Source: Candidatus Dormiibacterota bacterium
GTDB taxonomy: Bacteria; Chloroflexota; Dormibacteria; CF-121
Assembly: GCA_035544955.1 (NCBI GenBank)
Contig: DASZZN010000044.1
Coordinates: forward strand, 1 to 64,000
DNA: 64,000 bases
Reading direction: 5' to 3'
Shown piece after piece: positions 13,448-21,073 of the stretch. Below the pieces are notes generated by a model. That model made no database searches. It worked only from the letters and a program-made list of their open reading frames with translations, and was not told where the DNA came from. A program made the translations under genes and the position numbers. Each line of letters opens with the position of its first letter. Position 1 is the stretch's first letter.

Positions 13448-15541
13448 GTGTTGGCGGGCATCGTCTTTGGCCTGATCCTGTTGCTGGTGCTCGGCACCTT
13501 CGCCTACGCCTTCGCCACCCTGCCCGATCCCAGCCGGCTGGATCTGGCCGGGGGCGACATCCAGATCTTCGACCGCAACCACCAGTTGATCGAGCAGCGC
13601 AACGCGCAGGGCGTTCGCGTGATCCCGGTCGACCTGAAGGCGATCAGTCCGAACCTCGTCAACGCGACGATCGCGGTCGAGGACAAGCACTTTTACCAGC
13701 ACCACGGTGTCGACTGGGGCCGCGTCATCAAGGCCGGCATCATCGACGTAATCACGCGCCGTCCGCAGCAGGGGGCCAGCACGATCACCGAGCAACTGGC
13801 CAAGATTGCCATCCTGCAGTCCCCGAAGAAGTCGATCCTGCGCAAGCTGCGCGAGGCGATGGTCGCGACCGCCCTGGAATCGAAGTACAGCAAGGACGAC
13901 ATCCTGAGGCTGTACCTGAACAGCATCTATTACGGGCATCGTGCGACCGGCGTCGAGGCAGCCGTCGAGACCTATTTCGGAAAGCACGCCAAGGACCTGA
14001 CCGTGGGTGAGGCCGCGCTGCTCGCCGGCCTGCCGAACGGCCCAACCTATTTCGATCCGGCACTGCACAAGGACCGCGCGCTCGAGCGGCAGGCGATCGT
14101 GCTCGACGCCATGGTGAACAGCGGCATGATCACCAGCGCCCAGGCTGACCAGGCCAAGAACGAACCCCTCAACTTTGTCTTCAAGGAGAACCGGAGCAGC
14201 CAGGCGCCGCACTTCGTCGACTACGTGTTCGAGCAGCTCGAAGCCAGCTATGGCCCGTCGGCCGTCGCGAAAGGTGGCTTCTCGGTCACGACCACGCTCG
14301 ACCTCAACCTGCAGAAGGCCGCCGAGCAGGCGGTGGCCGTCGGTCAGCAGAAGTTGGGGCCGCTGGGCGCCGACAACGGTGACTTCCTCGCGATGGACCC
14401 CAAGACGGGCCAGATTCTGGCGATGGTCGGCTCAGCCGACTTCCTCAACAACAACATCCAAGGCCAGTTCAATGTCGTGACCGGGCTGCGGCAACCGGGC
14501 TCGTCGTTCAAACCGTACGCCTACGAGCAGGCGTTCAAGTCGCACAGGCTCACCATGGGCAACATGCTCGACGATACCTCGCGTCATTTCGCCAACGGGC
14601 AATTCCATGACTTCGACTACCGCGACATGGGCATGATCACGGCGCACAGGGCGCTGCTGCTGTCCCGGAATATCCCGGCGCTCGAAACGATGCAGGCCAC
14701 GGGCGTCGACAACGTCGTCAATTTCGCCCACGACATGGGCATCACAAACACGCTCAAGAGCGAGGTGACCACGGCCATCGGATCGAGCGAGGTGCGCATG
14801 CTCGACCATGCCGTCGGGTATGGCGTCTTCGCCAGCGGCGGCATGCGCCACGACCCGGTGTCCGTCATCGAGGTGAAAGACCAAGCTGGCAACACGCTGG
14901 ACAAGCCGAACGCGCCCGCGGCCAAGCAGGTGATCAGCGCCCAGGAGGCCTACCTGATCACGTTCATCCTCAAGGACTACGCGAGCCAGTGGAATCTGGG
15001 ATGGAACAAGCCGTTCGCCGGGAAGTCGGGGACGACGAACAACTACCGCGACGCCTGGATGATGGCCTACTCGCCCAACCTGGTGATCGGCGCCTGGGTC
15101 GGCCATACCGGTCCGGGAAACCAGGACATGAACGGGGTCTACGGCAGCATGGTCGGAAGCTCCGTGCTCAAGGACTTCATCAACAACGGCCTGACCCAGG
15201 CGCACTTCAGCGTTGAAGCGTTCAAGCGTCCCGACGGCCTCGTCGACGGACCGCCATGCGCGAATAGCGCGAACGTTTCGCCATCGGCGTCCCCATCCGC
15301 CTCGCCGTCAGCCGCCAGCACCAGTTCCGAGAAGGAGCTCTACCTGCCCGGCACCGAATGCAAGGCAGCCCCGACACCCTCCGCCACCCCATCGCCTTCC
15401 CCGAGCGACGTGCTGTCGCCTGTTCCCTCGATCGTCCCGAGCGGCATCCTACCGAGCTCGAGTCCCAGCCTGACTCCAGCACCGACTCCAGCACCGACCC
15501 CAACACCGACACCCGTGGCAACTGCCAGCGCATCGCCCTAG
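13448..15541 (+). CDS. Bifunctional class A penicillin-binding protein
   Basis: This is a peptidoglycan glycosyltransferase/transpeptidase. One N-terminal transmembrane helix (IVFGLILLLVLGTFAYAF) precedes the GT51 domain, with catalytic IAVEDKHFYQHHGVDWG and QGASTITEQLAKI. The transpeptidase has GSSFK (Ser nucleophile), SRN and KSGTT. The tail is Pro/Ser/Thr low complexity. GTG 13448 is the first normal start, yet the frame is open from 13031 and encodes a plausible cytoplasmic segment (WFDDRLEWLKIRRNWLV) just before it. The real start is therefore probably upstream; ATA at 13193, overlapping the DUF3618 stop, is one unproven possibility. It is third in the envelope operon. Confidence 0.85.
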   Translation: MLAGIVFGLILLLVLGTFAYAFATLPDPSRLDLAGGDIQIFDRNHQLIEQRNAQGVRVIPVDLKAISPNLVNATIAVEDKHFYQHHGVDWGRVIKAGIIDVITRRPQQGASTITEQLAKIAILQSPKKSILRKLREAMVATALESKYSKDDILRLYLNSIYYGHRATGVEAAVETYFGKHAKDLTVGEAALLAGLPNGPTYFDPALHKDRALERQAIVLDAMVNSGMITSAQADQAKNEPLNFVFKENRSSQAPHFVDYVFEQLEASYGPSAVAKGGFSVTTTLDLNLQKAAEQAVAVGQQKLGPLGADNGDFLAMDPKTGQILAMVGSADFLNNNIQGQFNVVTGLRQPGSSFKPYAYEQAFKSHRLTMGNMLDDTSRHFANGQFHDFDYRDMGMITAHRALLLSRNIPALETMQATGVDNVVNFAHDMGITNTLKSEVTTAIGSSEVRMLDHAVGYGVFASGGMRHDPVSVIEVKDQAGNTLDKPNAPAAKQVISAQEAYLITFILKDYASQWNLGWNKPFAGKSGTTNNYRDAWMMAYSPNLVIGAWVGHTGPGNQDMNGVYGSMVGSSVLKDFINNGLTQAHFSVEAFKRPDGLVDGPPCANSANVSPSASPSASPSAASTSSEKELYLPGTECKAAPTPSATPSPSPSDVLSPVPSIVPSGILPSSSPSLTPAPTPAPTPTPTPVATASASP
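15472..15520 (+). repeat. Short tandem repeat encoding the PBP Pro/Thr tail
   Basis: The unit ACTCCAGCACCG and near variants recur four times in the last codons of the PBP gene and encode a TPAPTPAPTPTP tract. It is a coding microsatellite-like repeat in an extracellular, presumably disordered tail, and could vary in length between strains. Confidence 0.65.
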
Positions 15542-15551
15542 AATTGCCGTG

Positions 15552-15833
15552 ATGGCGAAGAAGCCTGCGACGAGCAAATCGGCCCCAAAGAAGGCGAGTA
15601 CCGCCAGTCCGGTAAAGCCGCCGCATAAAGAAAACGCCATCGAGCGCTTTGCCGAAAGAGTCGAGGCCCGATTCTTCGAAGGCGCGGAAATGGCGACGGA
15701 GACGACCTCAGCCGAGACAAACATTGCGCTGGCCGCACTCGCCGCCATCGAAGGCCCTCGAGAGCCGAAGCCCGCGTCGAAGGGGAAACCCGCCAACGCC
15801 AAGCGCAAGAGCCCTCGACCCAAGAAGCGCTAA
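15552..15833 (+). CDS. Small basic Lys/Ala-rich protein, function unknown
   Basis: The 93-residue protein has a Lys/Ser/Pro-rich N-terminus (MAKKPATSKSAPKKAS), a central acidic helix (AIERFAERVEARFFEGAEMATE) and a strongly basic tail (KRKSPRPKKR). The composition resembles nucleoid-associated or nucleic-acid-binding tails, but no domain is recognised. It starts 10 bases after the PBP stop (GTG 15549 or ATG 15552), so it is likely the last gene of the envelope operon. Confidence 0.55.
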   Translation: MAKKPATSKSAPKKASTASPVKPPHKENAIERFAERVEARFFEGAEMATETTSAETNIALAALAAIEGPREPKPASKGKPANAKRKSPRPKKR

Positions 15834-15834
15834 T

Positions 15835-16494
15835 CCCTTCCCCGTCTACGACCGGGAGGTTGCGCGACTCCGGACCCACCTTCGCGCCCTCGACCAGCAG
15901 GGTTGGTCGGCGCGCAGCCACTGTCGCGGCTGGAGCGTCAAGGACGTGGTCGCCCATCTGTCGACCGACGAGGTCTACAACCAGGCCTGCCTGGACGGGA
16001 CGTTGGATGAGCTGCCTGCCAGCGACGGCCTCGGTGGATGGAACGGCCGTGGCGTACGGCTTCGCCGCGCGATGAGCCCGCTGGAGGTGCTGCAGGAGTG
16101 GGAGGCGCGGCAGGCGCTCGTCCGTTGGGCCTGGGGCAAGATCGGTGTCGATGGGCGGATCGAGACGAGTGTCGGCCGCTACCCGCTGCGCCTCCAGGTC
16201 TGGCACCTGGCTCGCGAGTACGCGATCCACGCCGATGACATCCGGGTCCCGATGTTAGAAACCAATCGTCGCGACCAGCTGCGCTGGCGCATCGCGTTCG
16301 GCCTCTTCGCGGCCCGGGAAGAGGGCGAGCCCGTGAATGCCGAGCTCGCCGCAGAGGAGGTCTACCTCCGACTGGACGGAACGCGTCACCGGCTCGAGCC
16401 CGAGACGTTCATTGCCTACTTGACCAACCGCCCCCAGCAACTGACCGATCCGAAGGAGCGGGCACTCGTCCGGCGCTTGGGCGCGACGGGATAA
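15835..16494 (+). CDS. DinB-like / maleylpyruvate isomerase family protein, start codon not found
   Basis: The sequence has the mycothiol-dependent maleylpyruvate isomerase/DinB-like pattern: VYDREVARLRTHLRALD, the C-G-W-S-V-K-DVVAHL helix (HCRGWSVKDVVAHLS) and a metal-site His pair (LQVWHLAREYAIHADDI). The family is typically 200-230 aa and acts in thiol-dependent detoxification or isomerisation. The conserved N-terminus begins right after the previous stop, but no ATG, GTG or TTG precedes it in frame; the first candidates upstream lie inside the previous gene. The start given is only where the frame becomes free. An indel or a non-standard start is possible. Confidence 0.7.
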   Translation, partial: PFPVYDREVARLRTHLRALDQQGWSARSHCRGWSVKDVVAHLSTDEVYNQACLDGTLDELPASDGLGGWNGRGVRLRRAMSPLEVLQEWEARQALVRWAWGKIGVDGRIETSVGRYPLRLQVWHLAREYAIHADDIRVPMLETNRRDQLRWRIAFGLFAAREEGEPVNAELAAEEVYLRLDGTRHRLEPETFIAYLTNRPQQLTDPKERALVRRLGATG

Positions 16495-16506
16495 CCTATC
16501 TATCGG

Positions 16507-16671
16507 ATGCCCAAGCAGCAGTATCTGTGCACGCATTGTGGGCGGCGCGTCTTCGCGGAGCGTGGACCGCTGACCGCGATCAAGCTCTGCCGTTCGTGCT
16601 TCGAGAAGGCGCGCGCGGAACAGCGGTCAGGCCTGCACAAAGACGAAGGCGCGCACGAAGACCGTCCGTGA
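16507..16671 (+). CDS. Small zinc-ribbon protein
   Basis: A 54-residue protein, MPKQQYLCTHCGRRVF then LCRSCFEKARAEQ, with two CxxC knuckles spaced about 20 residues apart. That is a classic zinc ribbon. The C-terminus is charged and hydrophilic. It begins 12 bases after the isomerase-like gene and overlaps the 3' end of the convergent methyltransferase gene by 45 bases. The function is unknown; similar small ribbons act as nucleic-acid or protein adaptors. Confidence 0.65.
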   Translation: MPKQQYLCTHCGRRVFAERGPLTAIKLCRSCFEKARAEQRSGLHKDEGAHEDRP

Positions 16672-17400
16672 GATCTCCTCGCTGAGCCGGAATCCTGTCG
16701 CATCGGCCACGCGCAACCACTCCGATCGCGGGAAGAAATGGAATGCCCCCGGCCCAAAGGCCAAAAGATTCCAGGCGTCGCGTAGGTGCTCGACGAGCAG
16801 GACCCTCCCACCCGGCTTGATCACGCGTGCGAGCTCGCGAAAGAAGGCCTCTTTCGAGGCGGGGCGGCGCAGCTCGTGGGCAACGAAGATCACCGTGACG
16901 AGGTCGGCGGCAGCGGCCTGGAGCGGCAGCTTCCGAAAGTCGGCGTCGACCGAGGCGAGCATGGAGCGCGCCTTACGCCGCGCCCGCGCGATCGACGGCT
17001 CGGGCATCTCCACTGGATCGTAGATGTCGAGGATTGTCACCTCGGCGGCGGGATACATCTCCTGGAGCGCCAGGCTTGTTTCGTCCAGCCCTGCGTGGAT
17101 GTTCACCACGTGCCCCGGATTCGGTGCGATCCGCTCGCGGATCCATTGCCACCGGTAGAGGTCCGAGCGATCGTACACATAGTGCGAGACGGCGAGGGAG
17201 AGCGCGAGCCCGACGAGCGCCGCGATCGCGCCGAGAATCAACAACCCCGCGAGCACGGTCGGCGGATGCGTCACAACGACCAGCCCAACGACGAGCAGGG
17301 AGCCGAAGATCGCGGCGACGTAGAGACTCCAGTTGTAGCGGACGATCTGGAGGACTCCGTCGAATGGGCCGCGCGTCACTCGATCGACGGCAGAGTTCAC
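16627..17400 (-). CDS. Membrane-tethered SAM-dependent methyltransferase
   Basis: About 257 aa. Two N-terminal transmembrane helices (WSLYVAAIFGSLLVVGLVVV and VLAGLLILGAIAALVGLALSL) precede a class-I methyltransferase domain. Motif I is unusual (VVNIHAGLDETS in place of GxGxG). The acidic strand end ILDIYDP, the DLVTVIFVAHEL region and PGGRVLLVEHLRD are family-like. GTG 17400 overlaps the upstream stop as GTGA. It is the last gene of a five-gene coupled operon with a BtaA-like protein, so a lipid substrate is plausible (inference). Confidence 0.78.
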   Translation of the reverse strand: MNSAVDRVTRGPFDGVLQIVRYNWSLYVAAIFGSLLVVGLVVVTHPPTVLAGLLILGAIAALVGLALSLAVSHYVYDRSDLYRWQWIRERIAPNPGHVVNIHAGLDETSLALQEMYPAAEVTILDIYDPVEMPEPSIARARRKARSMLASVDADFRKLPLQAAAADLVTVIFVAHELRRPASKEAFFRELARVIKPGGRVLLVEHLRDAWNLLAFGPGAFHFFPRSEWLRVADATGFRLSEEISRTVFVRAFVFVQA

Positions 17401-18152
17401 GCGGCCTCCCTGAGCCTCTCCACGACCCCGCGCTCCCACCGGTAGGGCACGTTCTCGACGTGAAAGGCGTTCGCCAGGATCGGTGTGACCGTGTTGAACG
17501 GCGGGTGTTCGAGGAAGGTGGCCTTTCGCACGACGACGGAAATCGGCTGCGGCTCCCAGTGCGTGCGGGTGGCCTTGATCATCACGATCGAGTTGGTCTC
17601 CCGCTCGTAGTCAAAGGTGTACGGCAGCGGCCCTGCGAAGCGGCGCGCGTCCTCGAGATTGGTGAAGGGCGAGCCCGCCGGCAGCGGCGCGGGCCGGCTC
17701 GAAAGGTCGGCCACCACGTCGAGATCCGCCGCCGCGCCCGGGCTGGTCACCGTGACGTGGAGGCGGTCACCATCGGTCACCATGGCGGCCCGGCAATGGA
17801 CGTAGCCGTAATGCGTCAGGAGATTTCCGCCAACCGCCATCAGCCGCCGATCGGTGTCGCTACGGAGGATCCTCAACCCGCGGAGCGAGAGCTTGGAAGA
17901 GTACCGGGTGAACAGGCGGTACCCGGTCAAGAAGAAATCGACCCCCAACGCCGACGGCAGAAACGCGGGATGCAGGCGCCGGGTCTGCACCATCGCAATG
18001 GCAATGAACCCGTAGTCACCGTAGGTGTCGACCGCCAGTCCCGGTGGGAGGAGTTGCTGCAGCGTTTTCGCCGGGTAGGCGTAGGTGAGGACGAGCGAGT
18101 GCGTGAAGAAGGCGCTGATGGCGAGCGGGTGGCGGCGAAGGCGATAGAGCAT
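17397..18152 (-). CDS. DUF2071 (YqjF-like) protein
   Basis: About 251 aa. It matches the DUF2071/COG3361 layout: a start near HPLAISAFFTHSLVLTYAYP, PPGLAVDTYGDYGFIAIAMVQ, LGVDFFLTGYRLFTRY and late HWEPQPISVVV. The family is uncharacterised and is thought to have an acetoacetate-decarboxylase-like fold. ATG 18152 overlaps the stop of the upstream gene (TGATG). It lies between the BtaA-like gene and the methyltransferase, so it may bind or modify a related hydrophobic metabolite; this is inference. Confidence 0.75.
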   Translation of the reverse strand: MLYRLRRHPLAISAFFTHSLVLTYAYPAKTLQQLLPPGLAVDTYGDYGFIAIAMVQTRRLHPAFLPSALGVDFFLTGYRLFTRYSSKLSLRGLRILRSDTDRRLMAVGGNLLTHYGYVHCRAAMVTDGDRLHVTVTSPGAAADLDVVADLSSRPAPLPAGSPFTNLEDARRFAGPLPYTFDYERETNSIVMIKATRTHWEPQPISVVVRKATFLEHPPFNTVTPILANAFHVENVPYRWERGVVERLREAA

Positions 18153-19045
18153 CAATGCACCTTCTCGACTGTCAGCCGGCCCCAGAGCATCGAGCGGTCG
18201 CGCGCCGCCCATTCCGTCGACTCGCCCAGCGGCGGCTCCATGAAACTGCGGAGCACCACCACAGCTCCAGCCTGCGCGCTGCGGCGGACGGCCGCCATCA
18301 GGCGCTCGCCGTAGGCCGGCTCCGTGCCGTCCAGAATGTTCGACAGGCTGAACCCGATGAAGGAGGCCGGCGGGCAGCTCTCGAGATAGGCCGCCGCATC
18401 GGCGCACACCAACTCGATCCGCTCTGCAGCCATCGGGGGTGCCGCGTAATCCGGAGGATCGGTCCCGAGGAAGAACCGCCAGGCGTAAGGGTTGGTCCGG
18501 TTGGGATGGAGGGCCCAACAGCGCTCCAGCCGCGCCCGGATGATGCGATCGAAGCGCTTGGGGAGCACCCGCACGAACGTCGAGCTGTAGATGGAGCGCA
18601 AGGCCAGCGGGTTGATCGCCACCGCCAGTGCCGCCTTGAAGCGCGCCGTGTCGAGGCGGGCGTGCCAGAGGCGGACCTGCTCGGATGGATCGGCCAGCTC
18701 GAGGAACTGTCGAATCTTCGATCGACGTAACCCCATCAGCGGAAGGAATCGCCGGCCGGCGGCGAAGAACCGGTCGGCCATCCCGGCGCGCGGCGCTGCT
18801 CCGCTGAGGCGCGAACGGACGTAGTCCACCTGCGCCGGGTTGATGTCGACCGCTGTCACCGCCAGCCCGCGGGCCGCCAGCGCCATGCTGGTACTCCCGG
18901 CCGAGGCGATGCAGAAGACTCGCCCTGACGCCGGCAGCACCTCGGCTTCGATGTCCCAGTCCTCGTACATCTGTCCGAACAGCAGTCGGGGCTTGCCCTG
19001 ACGCGCATCGAGACGACCGCGCTGCCAGGGGGTGGAGGCGCTCAC
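18152..19045 (-). CDS. DUF3419 / BtaA-like 3-amino-3-carboxypropyl transferase
   Basis: The 297-residue protein has DUF3419 features: RLLFGQMYEDWDIEAEVL, an AdoMet site (VFCIASAGSTSMALAARGLAVTAVDINPAQ) and the late FSLSNILDG plus VVVLRSFMEPP. The best known member, BtaA, transfers the 3-amino-3-carboxypropyl group of S-adenosylmethionine to diacylglycerol, the first step of betaine-lipid synthesis. GTG 19045 overlaps the DoxX stop as GTGA. No separate BtaB is obvious; the membrane-tethered methyltransferase at the end of this operon could fill that role. Confidence 0.8.
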   Translation of the reverse strand: MSASTPWQRGRLDARQGKPRLLFGQMYEDWDIEAEVLPASGRVFCIASAGSTSMALAARGLAVTAVDINPAQVDYVRSRLSGAAPRAGMADRFFAAGRRFLPLMGLRRSKIRQFLELADPSEQVRLWHARLDTARFKAALAVAINPLALRSIYSSTFVRVLPKRFDRIIRARLERCWALHPNRTNPYAWRFFLGTDPPDYAAPPMAAERIELVCADAAAYLESCPPASFIGFSLSNILDGTEPAYGERLMAAVRRSAQAGAVVVLRSFMEPPLGESTEWAARDRSMLWGRLTVEKVH

Positions 19046-19395
19046 CGCCGTGCCGTGCTCCAGATCAGGGCGACGAGCGCGAGGTTTTGCGTCACCATGT
19101 TCGCCGGCTCGGCGATCGTGCCGCGGCTGAAGAGCAGGCCGCCGCCATTCATCGCACCAAGCAGGGCCGTCTGCGCCGCAGCCGCGCTCCGAGGCGCGCG
19201 ACCGCTCAGCACCCAGGCCGCCAGCGCAACCTCGAAGGTGCCGACCATCGCCAGCACCTTCCTGGCGTGGGCCGGGCCGACACCGGGCAGATCGGCGACG
19301 ACCCTCAGATGTCGCTCATTCGGGGCAACCAGCTTGCACCAGCCACCCTGGTAGAGCCACACGGCGGCGATCGCCATCCTGGCGAGCACCCTCAT
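19042..19395 (-). CDS. DoxX-like membrane protein
   Basis: About 117 aa with four predicted transmembrane segments. The DoxX-like start VLARMAIAAVWLYQGGWCKLVAP, where aromatic/Gly residues precede a Lys, and GTFEVALAAWVLSG follow the family pattern. ATG overlaps the stop of the upstream gene as ATGA, and its own stop overlaps the BtaA-like start. DoxX-like proteins are often accessory membrane subunits of redox or lipid enzymes. No catalytic residues are evident. Confidence 0.75.
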   Translation of the reverse strand: MRVLARMAIAAVWLYQGGWCKLVAPNERHLRVVADLPGVGPAHARKVLAMVGTFEVALAAWVLSGRAPRSAAAAQTALLGAMNGGGLLFSRGTIAEPANMVTQNLALVALIWSTARR

Positions 19396-19766
19396 CGCGT
19401 CGCCGCAAGGCCAAAGACGATCGCGAGAAAGGCGAAGGCCACGATAAAGACAACGTCGGCCAAGCGGTTTTGCCGTCGGATCTCGGCCGGGTAATAGAGG
19501 AGCTGGATCGGCACCCGAAGCAGCCAGAAGATCGCCAGGAAGGTGCTCAGAAACCGGCCGAGCGGCCGGCCACTGACGAGTTCATCGGGGAACAGCAGCG
19601 AGAGGGCGGCGAAGCCGAGGACGACCAGCACGATGTAGGCGGCGTGGACGTAGAAGATCTGGCGGACAATCTCCGAGGCGCCGGCCAGGTTCTTGCGGTA
19701 CTGGAGCCGGGCGGCGAGCGGCAGATTGGCAATGCCGATGGCCAGCTGGACCGCGCCGGCAAATTT
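19392..19766 (-). CDS. Small multi-pass membrane protein, start unresolved
   Basis: About 125 residues with three to four hydrophobic helices (VQLAIGIANLPLAARL; FYVHAAYIVLVVLGFAALSLLFP; FLSTFLAIFWLLRVPIQLLYY; VVFIVAFAFLAIVFGLAA). It is the first gene of the overlapping minus-strand operon and is linked to DoxX by ATGA. No ATG, GTG or TTG lies in frame near the start of the hydrophobic part; the frame is open to 19964 but that region is antisense to the divergent transporter gene. A non-standard start is suspected. No family is recognised. Confidence 0.6.
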   Translation of the reverse strand, partial: KFAGAVQLAIGIANLPLAARLQYRKNLAGASEIVRQIFYVHAAYIVLVVLGFAALSLLFPDELVSGRPLGRFLSTFLAIFWLLRVPIQLLYYPAEIRRQNRLADVVFIVAFAFLAIVFGLAATR

Positions 19767-19867
19767 GAATCCAGGCCAAGAGCGGGAGCAAGTTGCTGGA
19801 TAGCCTAGCTCGATTCCCGCTAAGCTGTGCGGCAGATTCCCTGACAGGGAAGGAGGGAGAAAGCTCG

Positions 19868-21073
19868 ATGAGAAACGTGGCTCGTGGCATCGCGATCGCC
19901 CTCGCGCTCGCCCTCGCCGCCTGTGGCGGCAGCAGCACGACAGGAACCAGCACCTCGAACTCATACCAGGGCAAAACGATCCAGCTCGGGGCGATCCTCT
20001 CGCTCACGGGCGCCGGCGGCGTCTACGGCCCGAGCTCGAAAAAGGGCATGGACCTGGCCGTGGAGAAGATCAACAACTCGGGCGGCGTGAACGGCGCCAA
20101 GATCGCACTCGATACCCGAGACGACGCCTCGGACAAGATTCAGTCACAGCAGGTGGCGCAGACCCTCTTCCAGCAGGTCCAGCCGTTAGCCCTCCTCGGA
20201 CCCACGCTGTCCAACTCGGCGGTCGCCGTCCATCCACTTGCCGAGAGTCTCAAGATTCCGATCCTGGCCGTCAGCACCACCGGCATCCACATCGTCCCCG
20301 ATTGCAACTTCCCGAAAACGGATCCGTGCACGTACGTCTTCCGCGACAGTCTCGGAGAGGAGTCGGCCATCCCGGCCAACATCAAGGTTTACGCCGACGC
20401 GCACCATCCGAAGACGGCCGTGCTGATGGTGGCCAATGACGACAAGTTCTCAAAGGACGGCGGAACGATCGTCACCAACACGGTTGGCCAGTACGGCATC
20501 CAGCTGCTGGCCACGATCCCCTTCCCCAAAGCGACGGCCGATTTCGCGCCACCGGTGACGCAGGCGGTGCAGAAGAACCCCGACGTCATCTTCATCACCA
20601 GCCTGGGCAACATCCCGGCCAACATCATGCACGAGGCGCGCAAGCAGGGATTCACCGGGCAGTTTCTTGGCGGCAACGGCTTCAACACCGCAGCAGTTTC
20701 AAAGAACGCCGGAGCCGACGGCAATGGCGCGGAGAGCGGTAGCGCCTGGTACATCAACAACACCTTCACCTCGAATGCGGGATTTGTGCAGGCGTACCGC
20801 ACCAAGTACAGCAGCGACCCGGACCAGTTCGCCGCCCAAGGCTATGCCGCGATCCTGATCCTCGCCGACGCGGCAAAGCGGGCGAACCTCACGTTCAGCG
20901 ACGTCGCCGGTGACCGGACAAAGCTCCGCGACGCGATGGAGACGGTCAACATCGACACGCCACTGGGTCCTTTCCAGTTCACGAGCAAGCACGACGTGAA
21001 GCAGACGATCTGGGTGATCAAGATGGACGGCAACGGTGGGTTCACTCTGGTGCAGTCGGTGAAGCCTAGCTGA
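19868..21073 (+). CDS. Branched-chain amino-acid ABC transporter substrate-binding lipoprotein (LivJ/K type)
   Basis: The 401-residue protein has a lipoprotein signal (MRNVARGIAIALALALAACGG, lipobox LAAC) and a Peripla_BP_6 domain: IQLGAILSLTGAGGVYGPSSKKGMDLAV, the disulphide-type segment PDCNFPKTDPCTY and PDVIFITSLGNIPANIMHEARKQG. ATG follows AAGGAGGGAG. Ligands of this family are branched-chain or other hydrophobic amino acids, amides or aromatics; the exact one cannot be told. It heads the liv operon, followed 7 bases later by the permease. Confidence 0.92.
   Translation: MRNVARGIAIALALALAACGGSSTTGTSTSNSYQGKTIQLGAILSLTGAGGVYGPSSKKGMDLAVEKINNSGGVNGAKIALDTRDDASDKIQSQQVAQTLFQQVQPLALLGPTLSNSAVAVHPLAESLKIPILAVSTTGIHIVPDCNFPKTDPCTYVFRDSLGEESAIPANIKVYADAHHPKTAVLMVANDDKFSKDGGTIVTNTVGQYGIQLLATIPFPKATADFAPPVTQAVQKNPDVIFITSLGNIPANIMHEARKQGFTGQFLGGNGFNTAAVSKNAGADGNGAESGSAWYINNTFTSNAGFVQAYRTKYSSDPDQFAAQGYAAILILADAAKRANLTFSDVAGDRTKLRDAMETVNIDTPLGPFQFTSKHDVKQTIWVIKMDGNGGFTLVQSVKPS

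Follow-up and report, generated by a model that had tools for sequence, protein, structure and literature searches.

A stretch of 64,000 nucleotides from Candidatus Dormiibacterota bacterium (GenBank assembly GCA_035544955.1, contig DASZZN010000044.1, positions 1 to 64,000; hereafter the window) carries on its minus strand, between positions 16627 and 19766, five genes that together span ~3.1 kb. They encode a small membrane protein, a DoxX_3 membrane protein, a DUF3419 protein related to the betaine-lipid enzyme BtaA, a DUF2071 protein and a class I S-adenosylmethionine (SAM) methyltransferase (Table 1). The five frames and their four junctions, all of which overlap (ATGA, GTGA, TGATG, GTGA), were confirmed as given in a preliminary description of this DNA, and overlaps occur at the same four junctions in the operon of a congener (L009; ATGA, ATGA, TGATG, GTGA). 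That description took the overlaps to mean production in fixed ratio, although they support no inference stronger than translational coupling. We tentatively favour, at somewhat short of even probability, a patchily distributed, membrane-associated cassette for SAM-dependent lipid modification, with a short-form DUF3419 protein, the putative aminocarboxypropyl transferase, at its centre.

Pfam agrees with the family assignments proposed earlier. The DUF3419 (60.1 bits; cut-off 28.2), DoxX_3 (70.5 bits over the whole model; cut-off 25), DUF2071 (52.3 bits) and Methyltransf_11 (42.6 bits) domains all exceed the curated cut-offs; the small membrane protein matched no Pfam family. Comparison with congeners shows purifying selection on every gene of the cassette, with ratios of nonsynonymous to synonymous substitution (dN/dS) of 0.08-0.19. 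In the window the cassette is flanked by branched-chain amino-acid transporter and mycothiol-isomerase-like genes; since flanking genes differ among genomes, the cassette stands alone. No riboswitch was found by an Rfam scan of positions 15500-21000, and a promoter scan at the locus found none. A defence-system reading was rejected, PADLOC having given only a marginal generic match, for P0001.

The start of gene 1 previously placed at 19766 did not hold, as the codon there is AAA and no in-frame ATG, GTG or TTG is present from 19766 to 19964. In three congeners (L009-L011) gene 1 starts with a TTG that aligns near position 19791 of the window. Owing to an additional base in the window near 19761-19766, this position lies in a different frame. 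The insertion reflects either an error in the sequence or a frameshift of recent origin; downstream of it the frame still looks conserved (dN/dS of 0.13-0.15 against the three congeners). In one of these (L010 6001-7578, genome G065), an in-frame deletion of ~75 nucleotides joins DUF3419 to DUF2071 in one frame, with loss of the conserved C-terminal D-R-S motif, representing a real fusion or an assembly error. Most of the Chloroflexota genomes used are drafts, several of them metagenome-derived, and thus the window frameshift and the G065 fusion may both be assembly errors.

Table 1. Genes of the cassette in the window
Feature	Position	Strand	Evidence
Small membrane protein, gene 1	19392-19766	-	Several hydrophobic segments, about 125-140 amino acids (aa); Streptomyces cassette homolog E 1e-13
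DoxX_3 membrane protein, 117 aa	19042-19395	-	Pfam DoxX_3 1.9e-19; Streptomyces homolog 48% identical, adjoining BtaA-like gene
Short-form DUF3419 (BtaA-family) protein, 297 aa, candidate SAM-dependent 3-amino-3-carboxypropyl transferase	18152-19045	-	Pfam DUF3419 2.9e-16
DUF2071 protein, 251 aa	17397-18152	-	Pfam DUF2071 7.7e-14
Class I SAM methyltransferase, 257 aa, N-terminal hydrophobic region	16627-17400	-	Pfam Methyltransf_11 1e-10

The DUF3419, methyltransferase and DUF2071 proteins

The match of the DUF3419 protein to its Pfam profile (PF11899) comprises two stretches, profile positions 8-68 and 133-339. A tree of 20 DUF3419 proteins unites the six cassette proteins used with support of 100/100; the two rhizobial BtaA-type proteins form a clade of their own (100/100), and the other Chloroflexota and plasmid-encoded members also fall outside the cassette clade. 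The BtaA reference is a rhizobial protein encoded beside a class I methyltransferase, a neighbour which, as in the characterised btaAB operon, we take to identify it as BtaA; the second rhizobial protein was included because it groups with the first. SAM motif II is separated from the next conserved glycine by 4 residues in the cassette proteins, against 53-62 residues in all 14 non-cassette DUF3419 proteins. The SAM-site residues ED, G50, D67, N69 and G88 are kept in all cassette members; of these, the ED (positions 28-29), like a D-R that is also kept near the C-terminus, is typical of DUF3419 and lies outside motif I. Differences are observed in the C-terminal half, where all cassette members have Gly at a position that is aromatic (Trp/Tyr) in the 14 other proteins and Val/Ile at a position that is Arg in 12 of them. 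In short, the SAM half is retained while the remainder, expected to hold the acceptor, is changed. By the tests available on the sequences, the central enzyme is not BtaA itself, appearing instead as a shortened relative. The earlier label "BtaA-like" thus stands for family relationship and SAM-site residues, but not for clade, length or the C-terminal positions.

These data bear on canonical betaine-lipid synthesis, in which the DUF3419 protein would make diacylglyceryl homoserine, the methyltransferase would convert it to diacylglyceryl-trimethylhomoserine (DGTS) and the other genes would be accessory. A DUF3419 score above the curated cut-off, an adjacent methyltransferase, intact SAM-site residues and the name "BtaA family protein" given by NCBI to a Streptomyces homolog are compatible with this route, but the separate clade, the missing segment and the altered C-terminal positions argue against it, as does a methyltransferase that differs from the BtaB-type neighbour and is conserved without BtaA. 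The canonical BtaA/BtaB pathway is considered unlikely. The methyltransferase was rejected as a BtaB because its similarity to the class I methyltransferase beside R. leguminosarum BtaA is not significant.

The methyltransferase has a strong N-terminal hydrophobic peak at residues 49-67, compatible with the two helices proposed in the preliminary description, and contains the conserved motifs AHELR, EHLRD and GPGA(W/F)HF.PR. Its best NCBIfam matches are quinone methyltransferases, far under the cut-offs. Both SAM-binding proteins could be ordinary methyltransferases whose substrate is a membrane quinone or lipid, with no aminocarboxypropyl transfer, as the class I fold, the weak quinone methyltransferase matches and the predominance of methyltransferases among the structural matches of the DUF3419 protein would allow. 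The DUF3419-typical residues kept outside motif I speak against such an assignment, which is regarded as a shade less probable than the canonical pathway.

All structure-based results rest on the predicted model of the DUF3419 protein, the sole successful prediction (predicted local distance difference test, pLDDT, of 88). Foldseek matches this model to class I methyltransferases in the PDB, among them the nocardicin 3-amino-3-carboxypropyl transferase NAT (8zhv/8zhu) at ranks 2, 3, 5 and 12. As the template modelling scores (TM-scores) are low, these matches support a class I fold and only hint at the chemistry. PDB sequence searches with the DUF3419, DUF2071 and small-membrane-protein profiles gave nothing useful.

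The cassette DUF2071 protein is 52-56% identical to distant cassette members. The DUF2071 family is assigned to an acetoacetate-decarboxylase-like fold from which the catalytic Schiff-base lysine has been lost family-wide (PMC4520260), and no invariant lysine is present among eight cassette DUF2071 proteins that could correspond to that of acetoacetate decarboxylase.

Other observations concern DUF3419 proteins outside the cassette. Among viral models (BFVD), Foldseek matches the DUF3419 model best to Yasminevirus protein A0A5K0UB36 (632 aa; E 2.6e-10), whose length would fit a fused betaine-lipid synthase. Another DUF3419 clade (L029, L030, L034, L035, L066) includes a Roseinatronobacter plasmid cluster with UbiA-type prenyltransferase, phosphoenolpyruvate/pyruvate-binding and AMP-binding genes; its Chloroflexota members have similar neighbours, as judged by eye. 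DUF3419 genes adjoin iron-containing redox enzymes on Mycobacterium riyadhense and Deefgea plasmids (L069 5470-8187 and L068 4216-6445, respectively) and, by eye, ferritin-like and carrier-protein-like frames in genome G023 (L015). These redox- and ferritin-linked loci are candidate small-molecule aminocarboxypropyl pathways.

Distribution of the cassette

Among 110 genomes of the class, the short-form DUF3419 was found in four members of the genus, including the present genome, and in three genomes of another family, with one further weak match to a different DUF3419 type. The DUF2071 profile matched six of these seven genomes plus, weakly, one elsewhere; in the seventh (G058) the contig edge falls inside the DUF3419 gene. 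At the cut-offs used, the two subfamilies therefore occur in nearly the same few genomes. The preliminary description had proposed a search for the same gene order in other genomes, and that order was indeed found: it is kept in the congeners, and the second family retains DoxX, DUF3419, DUF2071 and methyltransferase in order, at 36-56% identity, as far as contig ends allow. All five genes recur on plasmid NZ_CP098484 of Streptomyces sp. Caat 7-52, where DoxX, DUF3419, DUF2071 and methyltransferase are followed by a 140-aa homolog of the small membrane protein.

In the plasmid collection, the methyltransferase, DUF2071 and the small membrane protein all have their close matches in the same six Streptomyces records. 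DUF3419 and DoxX are present in one of the six, the other five carrying DUF2071, methyltransferase and small membrane protein only. Since these three genes occur together in plasmid records without BtaA or DoxX, they can form a unit of their own, and the methyltransferase does not have to follow a BtaA-like step. The Actinomycetota spread is known only from plasmid records. IMG/VR scans with the DUF2071 and DUF3419 profiles revealed no relatives. The cassette is patchy in distribution and probably horizontally transferred.

An ArsR-family gene precedes the reduced cassette in the two records read, from an S. lavendulae plasmid (L037 7618-9960) and an S. yangpuensis plasmid (L038 7630-9978). 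DoxX proteins have been linked to oxidative stress in mycobacteria. Together, the regulator and DoxX could point to a membrane or redox stress-response cassette whose SAM enzymes modify a stress compound, but no redox partner gene was recognised as a shared cassette neighbour and the flanks differ among genomes, and this explanation is judged unlikely.

The small membrane protein and MBOAT acyltransferases

Further indications of a lipid-related role come from relatives of the small membrane protein located outside the cassette. In two congeners (G060 and G066), the end of an MBOAT_2 acyltransferase gene and the gene for such a relative overlap, with a second family member following in both, and inspection of reading frames on a short contig of G054 revealed the same arrangement of MBOAT_2 and small membrane protein. 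These congener loci (L096 6117-9029, L097 23-1969 and L098 2403-3457) constitute an overlapping operon that includes a MarR-family regulator. In other Chloroflexota, including three genomes (L112-L114), a family member is fused to MBOAT_2 (L108 469-1896), and the membrane domain has no Pfam family. The cassette small-membrane-protein profile scores 53 bits on the fused MBOAT_2 protein but -2 bits where the MBOAT is free, a difference that speaks against a match to transmembrane segments in general. The association, as read from gene order and fusion, ties the family to lipid-modifying enzymes independently of DUF3419, and the lipid role of the cassette thus gains independent support. The lipid pathway proposed earlier is strengthened to this extent, but it is unlikely to be that of BtaA/BtaB, given the clade, the missing segment and the methyltransferase dissimilarity.

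The MBOAT link also bears on a different explanation, according to which the DUF3419 enzyme would make a non-lipid small molecule, by transferring the aminocarboxypropyl group to a soluble acceptor or by acting as a SAM cyclase, in an accessory natural-product or signalling pathway with membrane proteins for export or resistance. Such a function would agree with the loss of an insert found in all other compared DUF3419 proteins, the varied clusters in which other DUF3419 clades reside, the presence of NAT, a small-molecule aminocarboxypropyl transferase, among the fold matches, and the patchy, partly plasmid-borne distribution. It is less easily reconciled with a methyltransferase bearing a hydrophobic N-terminus, two membrane proteins and no transporter in the cassette, or with the MBOAT association, and we consider it rather improbable.

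Proposed function and comparison with known systems

Within the favoured lipid-modification cassette, we infer both reactions, the acceptor and the step order as follows. The short DUF3419 enzyme would move the 3-amino-3-carboxypropyl group of SAM onto a hydroxyl group of its acceptor, a membrane lipid or another hydrophobic molecule, and the methyltransferase, held at the membrane via its N-terminal hydrophobic region, would methylate a lipid-linked group, whether on that homoserine head group or elsewhere. DoxX_3 and the small membrane protein may form a membrane platform, while DUF2071, probably of acetoacetate-decarboxylase-like fold and lacking the catalytic lysine, may bind or process the hydrophobic substrate.

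Several observations weigh against this proposal. The best Pfam methyltransferase match starts at profile position 25, leaving motif I uncovered, and the DUF2071 structure model is unusable (pLDDT 41). The TM-scores to NAT are 0.21-0.36, and ordinary methyltransferases equal them. In the second family of the class, the small membrane protein is missing from the neighbourhood of the cassette, and BtaA and DoxX are absent from the reduced cassette (ArsR-DUF2071-methyltransferase-small membrane protein), such that a linear route from BtaA to methyltransferase is not required.

The variant or new amino-lipid route of the preliminary description could exist. In its most explicit form, short-form DUF3419, membrane-anchored methyltransferase, DUF2071 and the two membrane proteins would constitute an undescribed head-group pathway shared by Chloroflexota and Actinomycetota and leading to an amino or betaine lipid of a new, ether-linked type, which we regard as possible but doubtful. 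A search of the literature found a paper on the DUF2071 fold (PMC4520260) and nothing describing the cassette or what it makes. If the proposal is correct, a distinct short-form enzyme cassette would widen aminocarboxypropyl-lipid chemistry, known mainly from BtaA, to soil Chloroflexota and Streptomyces, and would provide functions for three uncharacterised components, DUF2071, DoxX_3 and the unnamed membrane family that is also fused to MBOAT.

Four known systems are closest to the cassette. It resembles BtaA/BtaB, which synthesise DGTS, in combining a DUF3419 SAM enzyme with conserved SAM-site residues and a class I methyltransferase in one operon, but differs in its short DUF3419 protein of separate clade, lacking the 53-62-residue segment, in a methyltransferase dissimilar to BtaB and in three extra genes. 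NAT, among the closest solved folds, uses a class I methyltransferase fold for aminocarboxypropyl transfer, although identities in the fold alignments are 11-20%, TM-scores are low and the NAT acceptor is a soluble small molecule. The Chloroflexota MBOAT_2 acyltransferase operons have the small membrane protein family in common, either encoded by an overlapping gene of the operon or fused to the acyltransferase; there, acyl transfer rather than SAM chemistry is expected, and the other four cassette genes do not lie beside them. In the reduced Streptomyces cassette, three genes belong to the subfamilies found here and are ordered as in the full Streptomyces cassette, with the membrane protein last, but an ArsR-family regulator takes the place of DUF3419 and DoxX.

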